Source: Spirochaetales bacterium (GTDB lineage Bacteria > Spirochaetota > Spirochaetia > Treponematales > UBA12059). Taken from it: DNA of 64,000 bases. Made by a program: the position numbers and the translations under genes. Of this stretch, positions 9,776 to 64,000 are shown piece by piece. The stretch is taken from positions 1-64,000 of the forward strand of contig JAFGJV010000034.1 of NCBI GenBank assembly GCA_016928955.1. Reading direction: 5' to 3'. Each line of letters begins with the position of its first letter. The stretch's first letter is position 1. The notes under the pieces are model-generated. The model saw only the letters and a program-made list of their open reading frames with translations, had not been told where the DNA came from and ran no database searches.

Positions 9776-10927
9776 CTACATCCGTACGCCGAGCACCAGT
9801 TTTGGCCAAACGTCCAGGTCCAGGAACGGCGTGCGGAGCTTGAATGCCGAGCCGCCCAGGAAACCTGTCCTGAGGCCAAGGGGGACCGTATCCGAGTCGG
9901 GAGCAGAGAAGTCCGCGCGTATGCCCACGCTCAGGGCCCCGCCGTTGCCGCCTATGGCCGCGCTCAGCTTGAGCGTGCCAAAAGCCCGGTCAAAGGGCAG
10001 GTTGTCATACCGGTGGTCGCCGATTTGGTCCCAGGAGGCGTACGCGTCCTCCGCGGGAAGTTCCATGCCCAGCTCGGCGTCCACGTCCACACAGCCAAGA
10101 CTGACGCGCTTGCCCAGGCCAAAACTGGCTGATAGGCCGTTGGGCGTGAACAGGTCCGCGCCTGACTGGCCAAGGCCAAGGGCCGTGTACAGGTTCCTGG
10201 TGCCCGAGCGCCAGACAAGGTGGTAGTAATCGGCCTCAGGCAACCATTCCAGGGCCAGGTCCGACACGCCGTCGCCAATCAGGTTGACAAGGCCTATGGC
10301 CGTTCCGTTCAGGCTGTCTGCCACGTTGACAAGGCCTATCATGACGCCGTTCACCCTGCTGGCCGCGTTGAACACGCCGGCCAGCATGACGCCGTTTACC
10401 TCGTCCGCCATGTTGAACACGCCGGCCAGCTGGCCGCCGTCCACGCGATCGGCCATGGAGAACACGCCCGCCAGCTGGACTCCGGACACCGTGTCGGCCA
10501 TGACGAACACGCCGGCTGCCTGGAAGGACGCCACCGAGTCGGCCATGCTGAAGACGCCTGACACCTGGGCGCCGTACACGTCGTCGGCCAGGGAAAAGAC
10601 GCCCGAGCCCTGGAAACCGTGCACGGTGCCGGCCAGGGAGCCTATCAGGCCCAGGGCAAGGGGTGTGTCGCAGTATTCCATGGGGAAAGAAAGTCCGGGG
10701 GTAAAGGACAGGACGAAGGGCGCCCAGGGTCTGCCCGAGTCGCCGTATTCCGTCTGCTCCGCGGGAGAACCTGCGTCCGACGCTCCAGGGTCGCCTGGAT
10801 ACTCCGACTGGAAATACCGATCGCGGGCCTCGTCCAGCACGCGGTCATCCGACGCGTCGCCCGCTTCCTGCGCGGCAACGCCCATGGCGGCCAGCAAAGC
10901 CGCCGCCAAAAACCACAAACGTTTCAT
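9776..10927 (-). CDS. exported LA_2272-like surface repeat protein
   Basis: The 383-aa protein has a cleavable signal peptide (MKRLWFLAAALLAAMGVAAQ). At residues 108-228 it has about eight consecutive 15-residue repeats with consensus AGVFxMADxVxGxQL, drifting to GLVN at the end. This pattern matches what is known of the LA_2272 family surface repeat proteins first named in Leptospira. The C-terminal 150 residues look like outer-membrane or beta-rich sequence. The start at 10927 is chosen because GGGAGTG precedes it and it begins the signal peptide; the open frame to 10981 does not fit. Role unknown, probably cell surface. Confidence 0.8.
   Translation of the reverse strand: MKRLWFLAAALLAAMGVAAQEAGDASDDRVLDEARDRYFQSEYPGDPGASDAGSPAEQTEYGDSGRPWAPFVLSFTPGLSFPMEYCDTPLALGLIGSLAGTVHGFQGSGVFSLADDVYGAQVSGVFSMADSVASFQAAGVFVMADTVSGVQLAGVFSMADRVDGGQLAGVFNMADEVNGVMLAGVFNAASRVNGVMIGLVNVADSLNGTAIGLVNLIGDGVSDLALEWLPEADYYHLVWRSGTRNLYTALGLGQSGADLFTPNGLSASFGLGKRVSLGCVDVDAELGMELPAEDAYASWDQIGDHRYDNLPFDRAFGTLKLSAAIGGNGGALSVGIRADFSAPDSDTVPLGLRTGFLGGSAFKLRTPFLDLDVWPKLVLGVRM
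10244..10606 (-). repeat. 45-bp intragenic repeats (8 units)
   Basis: The DNA encoding residues 108-228 of the surface protein consists of about eight imperfect 45-bp units, each encoding a [AS]GVFxMAD-type repeat. Such arrays can change copy number by recombination. Confidence 0.75.
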
Positions 10928-27287: not shown

Positions 27288-27293
27288 CGAATA

Positions 27294-27403
27294 ATGGGAA
27301 CCTCTAAAAACCCCATGGTTATTAGAGGTTCCCTGCGTTTTCGGCCGAAAACGCTAGGTTTTTAAGGTAACCCTCTAAAAACTGAAGTTTTTAGAGGCTC
27401 CCT
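27294..27403. repeat. MITE-like palindromic repeat, copy 1
   Basis: A 110-bp element bounded by 15-bp terminal inverted repeats (GGGAACCTCTAAAAA and the inverse of GGGAGCCTCTAAAAA, one mismatch). It contains three hairpins: a 12-bp stem GGGAACCTCTAA/TTAGAGGTTCCC, a perfect 20-bp palindrome around TTTCGGCCGAAA, and a 12-bp stem CCTCTAAAAACT/AGTTTTTAGAGG. A second copy is at 63263-63371. Here it lies just upstream of a minus-strand gene. No clean target duplication is visible at this copy (TAAT versus TATA). Confidence 0.85.
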
Positions 27404-27592
27404 ATAAGCTGTAATCGCCGTGCTAGTGGATGAACGGGCGGCCATCTGGTTTTACACATGGTTACTAATAATCAGCCTGGTCCAGCACAGTAATTTCAAG
27501 ATACGCTGGTCGTGTGACCGACATTCCGCATATCCGTCACCAGAACAGTGTAGCAAAAAACTACAATACATCAGGTGTGTTTGTATAGGTTC

Positions 27593-63035: not shown

Positions 63036-63262
63036 GGCCGCACTGTAGCCCGGCTTTGTCGATTGGTCAAGAAACGAGGCAGCGTTCACGACGATTGCGC
63101 GCGGTGGCTTTCAGTAAACGCCAGCAGGGTTATCTGGCCATACTCTGTGGCTCGGTGGCTAGCCGTATTTCCGGCTCATTCCGGGAGGTTTGACCGCGGC
63201 AGCGTACCTCGTTACCTTTATACGTTTGGGGCCTCTGTGCACCATTCGTAGACGGCCCCTTT
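63036..63262. other. intergenic, no gene seen
   Basis: The 227 bp between murA and the MITE-like element contain no open frame or hairpin that I can support. They probably contain the murA promoter and part of the fhs regulatory region. Confidence 0.4.
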
Positions 63263-63371
63263 ATGGGAACCTTTAAAACCCCAGGGTTATTAGATGTTCC
63301 CTGCGTTTTCGTCCGAAAACGCACAGTTTTTTAAGGTAACCCTCTAAAAACTGCAGTTTTAGAGGCTCCCT
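63263..63371. repeat. MITE-like palindromic repeat, copy 2
   Basis: A 109-bp relative of 27294-27403, with the central palindrome TTTTCGTCCGAAAA and the third hairpin nearly intact. The first hairpin has two mispaired positions. It is flanked on both sides by TTAT, a candidate 4-bp target duplication. It lies immediately upstream of the fhs ribosome-binding site, in the opposite orientation relative to its gene compared with copy 1. Confidence 0.85.
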
Positions 63372-63395
63372 TATGTTTGTTCACAGGAGGCCAGA

Positions 63396-64000
63396 ATGTC
63401 CGTAGAGCGCGTTAAGCCGGTACCCAGTGACATAGAAATTGCCCAGGCGGCAAAGATCAGGAAAATCGTGGAGGTGGCTGAGGACTACGGCATCTGCGAT
63501 GAATGCATCGACCACTTTGGCCGTTACAAAGCCAAGGTCCGGCTGGAATTCCTCAAGCAGAACGAAACCACCCCACGCAGGGCAAAATATATTGACGTGA
63601 CCGCCATCACCCCGACTCCCCTGGGCGAGGGCAAGACCACCACCACGGTGGGTCTGACCCAGGGCCTCGGGAGAATCGGCAAGAAGGCCATAGCCGCGAT
63701 ACGCCAGCCGTCCATGGGCCCGACCTTTGGCATCAAGGGCGGGGCTGCCGGCGGAGGGTACAGCCAGATCGTCCCCATGGAGGACTTCAACCTCCACCTG
63801 ACCGGGGACATCCACGCGGTGGCCGCCGCGCACAATCTCTGCGCCACCGCCCTTGACGCCAGGATGCATCACGAAAACCGCTGGTCTGACGCCTTCTTTG
63901 AGAAACAGGGACTTAAGAAGCTCAACATAGACCCCTACCAGGTGCTATGGCGAAGAGTGGTCGACATGAACGACAGGCCGCTCAGGGACATCGTGCTGGG
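63396..64000 (+). CDS. fhs: formate-tetrahydrofolate ligase (partial, runs off window)
   Basis: The first 201 residues of an ATP-dependent ligase that makes 10-formyl-THF from formate, a key enzyme in the Wood-Ljungdahl methyl branch and C1 metabolism. Evident are DIEIAQAAK at the start, ITPTPLGEGKTTTTVGL (P-loop), RQPSMGPTFGIKGGAAGGG and DFNLHLTGDIHA. AGGAGG at 63385-63390 sets the ATG at 63396. The 3' part is outside the window. Confidence 0.96.
   Translation, partial: MSVERVKPVPSDIEIAQAAKIRKIVEVAEDYGICDECIDHFGRYKAKVRLEFLKQNETTPRRAKYIDVTAITPTPLGEGKTTTTVGLTQGLGRIGKKAIAAIRQPSMGPTFGIKGGAAGGGYSQIVPMEDFNLHLTGDIHAVAAAHNLCATALDARMHHENRWSDAFFEKQGLKKLNIDPYQVLWRRVVDMNDRPLRDIVL

Follow-up and report, generated by a model that had tools for sequence, protein, structure and literature searches.

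Two copies of a short palindromic element lie in the window, that is, in the whole stretch of 64,000 nucleotides that was analyzed from the genome of a Spirochaetales bacterium (hereafter, the host). Both copies, which the initial annotation had placed at 27294-27403 and 63263-63371, were found, and we delimited them in a shared register running from an outer GGG to an outer CCC (Table 1). At 106–110 bp, the element is too short for a transposase gene to fit. Its layout consists of a 38-bp hairpin, a central palindrome of 20–22 bp, and a third hairpin, and it is bounded by terminal inverted repeats (GGGAACCTCTAAAAAC ... GTTTTTAGAGGCTCCC). Each terminal hairpin is a 16-bp end that faces its own inverted copy across 4–6 bp; in hairpin 1 of copy 1, accordingly, the inner arm is the inverted repeat of the outer arm. 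The end motif, allowing at most two mismatches, had six matches in the window (shuffles: mean 0.08, maximum 1), and the folding of the two copies as single-stranded DNA, when compared to that of shuffled sequences, gave z-scores of -8.6 (copy 1) and -4.9 (copy 2). The two copies had been described as having opposite orientations relative to their downstream genes, and a comparison of the gene strands agrees: both copies read on the + strand, and the gene downstream of copy 1 is on the minus strand, while copy 2 precedes a plus-strand gene that starts at 63396. The TTAT duplication noted earlier at one copy is exact and flanks copy 2; at copy 1, the flanking tetranucleotides in the family register differ (TAAT on the left, TATA on the right), so that an exact duplication is lacking there. 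Elsewhere in the window, a 45-nt tandem repeat is present six-fold at 10300-10614, and it is probably coding.

Table 1. Positions in the window of the two element copies, their component parts, and their flanking duplications.
Feature	Position	Strand	Remarks
Putative MITE copy 1, core GGG...CCC	27296-27402	+	107 bp
Copy 1, hairpin 1	27296-27333	+	
Copy 1, left terminal inverted repeat (hairpin 1 outer arm)	27296-27311	+	GGGAACCTCTAAAAAC
Copy 1, hairpin 2 (central palindrome)	27335-27354	+	GCGTTTTCGGCCGAAAACGC
Copy 1, hairpin 3	27372-27397	+	outer arm plus CTCCC (to 27402) is the right terminal inverted repeat
ATAA adjoining copy 1	27291-27294 and 27404-27407		shifted by one base relative to the family register
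Putative MITE copy 2, core GGG...CCC	63265-63370	+	106 bp
Copy 2, hairpin 1	63265-63301	+	imperfect
Copy 2, hairpin 2 (central palindrome)	63302-63323	+	TGCGTTTTCGTCCGAAAACGCA
Copy 2, hairpin 3	63341-63365	+	followed by right end CTCCC to 63370
Copy 2, target duplication TTAT, left	63261-63264		exact
Copy 2, target duplication TTAT, right	63371-63374		exact

The initial annotation had proposed a search of the complete genome for further copies. We searched the host assembly (2.87 Mb in 59 contigs, 99.5% complete) and found not just two copies but about 40, dispersed over many contigs: sequences of approximately 83–100% identity occupied 40 places (E < 1e-20), some of them cut at contig ends. 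The divergence among these copies thus reaches ~17%. At two or fewer mismatches, the end motif had 213 matches in this genome, compared to two for a reversed control. Six host contigs (C4, C27, C42, C53, C56, and C57) end inside the element; some copies, or any insertion sequence (IS) located at such breaks, may therefore be missing from the draft. A scan of 294 genomes from the order detected the end motif in 123, which represent 43 of 83 genera. In a collection of genome contigs, the named hosts among the palindrome matches listed were all Treponema or other spirochaetes, and the exact hairpin-1 sequence had no match in that collection. A second MITE-like family, also built of three hairpins and unrelated in sequence to the first, occupies ~26 places in the host genome (e.g., L015:1616-1754, ~139 bp, ends GAGGCTCTTTCAAAA / TTTTGAAATTGGCTC); its 4-bp duplications are TAAA, TATA, TGAA, TATG, TCAT, and TATC.

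The flanks of the dispersed copies bear the marks of insertion. The prediction that such copies would have 4-bp duplications was borne out: 20 of the 34 complete three-hairpin copies are flanked by an exact one, whereas 1.4 would be expected from the chance pairing of the same flanks (maximum of 8 in 10,000 permutations). Exact 4-bp duplications also border nine of 30 single palindromes (1.2 expected; see below), and the numbers drop sharply at duplication widths other than 4 bp. The target sites are AT-rich, with the first base mostly T and the last A or T. Precise empty sites are available as well: three insertions lie within another repeat family whose uninterrupted members keep one 4-bp site (three-hairpin copies in L003, TTCT, and L025, TTTT; a single palindrome in L072, AAAA). 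None of the 64 copies examined is inside a predicted gene, while the window is 85% coding according to the same simple gene caller. In another element-rich genome, G196, exact 4-bp duplications accompany 10 of 13 three-hairpin elements.

The 16-bp end, GGGNACCTCTAAAAAC, is common to the element and to autonomous IS5-family elements (~1.2 kb, with a DDE transposase), which occur in Treponema-like genomes of the host's order and in Aliarcobacter. One of them is a 1237-bp IS (locus L105, genome G081), which has ends GGGCACCTCTAAAAAC and GGCCACCTCTAAAAAC and a TAAT duplication; its 340-aa product scores 284 bits against the IS5 model NF033581 (cut-off 140) and also matches DDE_Tnp_1 and DUF772. 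Matching ends with a duplication were found for four further ISs (L145, ATAT; L169, TAAA; L170, AATA; L299, ATAT), and two more copies (L146 and L150) have matching ends and no exact duplication. The 294 genomes scanned include 25 with a homologue of the transposase, and in several of these both ends are present as well. In the host's own family, G001 and G012 encode the transposase, and fragments are present in G022 and G003; both ends of the G001 IS are GGGAACCTCTAAAAAC, identical to the left end of the element in the window. The end motif is found in 19 of the 25 genomes with the transposase vs. 104 of the 269 others (P = 0.0005), an association that is inflated because each IS adds its own two ends. 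What the element and the ISs share is limited to these 16 bp: their interiors are not alike. On plasmid pAFAEC of Aliarcobacter faecis, an IS5-family element with an ATAT duplication has ends that are almost identical to these, and the end is thus a property of an IS5 branch rather than of one spirochaete lineage.

A transposase with matching ends, which had been suggested as a means of confirming mobility, is therefore present in relatives but not in the host's own genome. A search for DDE_Tnp_1 transposases, positive in nine of 14 control genomes, found none there, and the IS5 transposase query proteins did not match anything in that genome; several element-rich genomes, such as G196, yielded no transposase match either. 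One pair of ends lying 1.3 kb apart on host contig C24 (L068) was considered as an autonomous IS and rejected, as it consists of two single palindromes flanking ordinary genes. An IS1168-like element (L300) was likewise discarded as a relative, being without this end. In genome G096, an IS1182-like fragment lies near one end motif (GGGCACCTCTAAAAAC) within a duplicated, 3.1-kb tandem-repeated stretch of its contig (L101, 2642-4226 and 5742-7326); the tandem stretch is possibly an assembly artefact.

Taken together, these observations make it very probable (roughly 93%) that the element is a non-autonomous one, i.e., a MITE, and that a DDE transposase of the IS5 family, recognizing the 16-bp end, mobilized it in trans. 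Such a transposase, encoded elsewhere, would recognize the end, cut at the outer GGG/CCC, and insert the element at an AT-rich site, making the 4-bp duplication; the two terminal hairpins, each composed of an end and its inverted copy, would surround the central palindrome. The IS5 transposases of related genomes presumably moved these copies, and the MITE may have arisen from an IS through loss of the interior. Because no IS5 transposase is detectable in the host, movement would have occurred in trans and is probably over there; the divergence of the copies also makes the family look inactive in this genome. We file the element as a putative IS5-derived MITE with a REPIN-like layout, because every MITE feature that we examined is present (short length, no transposase gene, multiple copies, terminal inverted repeats, a duplication of fixed length, and empty sites), because its ends and duplication length are those of IS5, and because no Y1 transposase accompanies it.

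Could the element instead be a structured RNA? An RNA with a cis-regulatory or leader role, or a family of terminators, that had been duplicated along with its genes would account for three stable hairpins with covariation, for the intergenic placement (both window copies are just upstream of genes), and for the terminator-like central hairpin on the + strand. The gene arrangement argues otherwise. The 64 copies comprise 14 in convergent, 14 in divergent, and 28 in tandem settings, with eight at contig or locus edges; 5'-5' and 3'-3' gaps are thus occupied alike, and in tandem settings the three-hairpin copies run with the gene direction in eight cases and against it in eight. A fixed orientation relative to the same gene families, which the initial annotation had named as evidence against a mobile element, was therefore not seen, orientation being random across settings. 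Because copies occupy every gene arrangement, the covariation gives no argument for a leader RNA. Moreover, target duplications and empty sites demonstrate insertion, Rfam matches were sub-threshold only (31 bits vs. a cut-off of 100), terminator-like matches did not exceed the shuffle level, and a promoter scan of both window copies found none. The gene arrangement and the insertion data are strong arguments that the main explanation is not a leader RNA, a reading that we regard as very unlikely, and the earlier preference for a mobile palindromic repeat over a leader RNA is upheld by the copies, their duplications, the empty sites, and the random orientation. The element may still have a secondary use at single sites.

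A different mode of movement deserves the same scrutiny. In REP/REPIN-type elements, which would be moved via single-stranded DNA by a Y1 (RAYT) transposase, two palindromes likewise surround a covarying spacer hairpin, and singles are common (PMC3116915). The 4-bp target duplications in the host and in G196 contradict this mechanism, the ends are those of IS5-family DDE elements, and the Y1 transposase (PF01797) is absent from the host genome; we judge it extremely improbable.

Within the interpretation as an IS5-derived MITE, the hairpins themselves call for comment. Between copies, 13 of 39 pairs, 10 of them in hairpin 1, changed on both sides, compared to 3.5 in shuffles, and in G196 the count was 8 of 41 vs. 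2.3, mostly in the central stem; the shuffles do not keep the relatedness of the copies, so all of these counts are indicative, although controls with slid partners were also well below them. The original statement that such changes are scarce may be true of the pair in the window, but it is wrong for the family. Since only the outer arm of hairpin 1 is an end, selection on the outer ends cannot explain the pairing of its arms; this pairing was kept either by template switching during replication or by selection on the hairpin. The second of these, with a hairpin or cruciform in the DNA being selected because mobility or host tolerance requires it, is a tentative candidate that we favor somewhat less than not. 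It is consistent with the excess of both-side changes, with the recurrence of the three-hairpin layout in the unrelated family of the host genome, and with the G196 element of another genus, which at 141–178 bp has the same layout around a different central sequence and stem. On the other side, template switching in replication can create and repair hairpin stems with no need for selection (PMC8794818), and our data do not separate the two. Five G196 copies (L129, L135, L136, L137, and L140) have extra short hairpin inserts (GGTGAGCTTTGCTCACC, ATCAGCTATGCTGAT, and TTCCGAAGGATGCGAA) at fixed places, as if smaller palindromes were nested inside the hairpins.

Many of the additional end-motif matches in the host genome are single palindromes of 36–38 bp (e.g., GGGAGCCTCTAAAAACTGCAGTTTTTAGAGGCTCCC); at least 30 are related to the element, and 30 were examined. 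A deletion between the direct repeats of hairpins 1 and 3 should give two products, and many of the singles match these: in one example, the body of hairpin 1 is joined to the GGCTCCC end of hairpin 3. The duplications at the singles fit remnants too, because deletion would leave them in place. Most singles may thus be what deletion has left of three-hairpin copies, an origin also proposed for REP singlets (PMC3116915), or they may be mobile by themselves. A bolder version, in which the 36–38-bp palindrome is the complete mobile unit, the three-hairpin form is a composite of two, the hairpin shape is selected, and the REPIN layout has been reached convergently with another transposase class, appears doubtful to us; if true, it would place these palindromes among the smallest DDE-mobilized elements.

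This putative IS5-derived MITE family spans a large part of an order that contains Treponema, and in the literature searched we found no earlier report of it and no description of the element in Treponema. It offers a natural test of why small mobile palindromes arrive at the same arrangement, a covarying stem between paired terminal hairpins, when the enzymes that serve them (RAYT and IS5-type DDE) are unrelated. On a practical level, the copies break assemblies and adjoin gene starts, and they should be masked before leader RNAs are sought in these genomes.

Among known systems, Correia/NEMIS and RUP are palindromic intergenic MITEs of ~100–150 bp that are present in many copies, and they have TA (2-bp) target duplications. 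They resemble the present MITE in size, palindromes, and copy abundance, and they differ from it in the duplication, the end sequences, and the IS families. REPINs, too, have two palindromes flanking a covarying spacer hairpin and singles that are likely remnants (PMC3116915), but they are linked to RAYT (Y1) transposases, whereas the present MITE has DDE-type IS5 ends, 4-bp duplications, and no Y1 gene in its genome. Also comparable are BrickBuilt and MITE239/464/700 of Porphyromonas gingivalis and the ATR elements of Neisseria (with ISNme1 ends), which, in the portions of the source consulted, are described as multicopy, non-autonomous elements whose ends match those of full-length IS5-family elements (PMC4596501). 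Their end sequences and hosts are different, and the same portions do not note the doubled-end, three-hairpin layout; P. gingivalis still has the full-length IS, while the host of the present MITE is without a detectable one. Further counterparts are the IS5-family elements of the NF033581 (IS5_4) type (L105 in G081; those in G054, G132, and G001; and that of pAFAEC), which have the same 16-bp end and 4-bp AT-rich duplication as the MITE: they are 1.2–1.3 kb long, with a transposase gene and single ends, whereas the MITE has no gene and carries its ends as hairpins.
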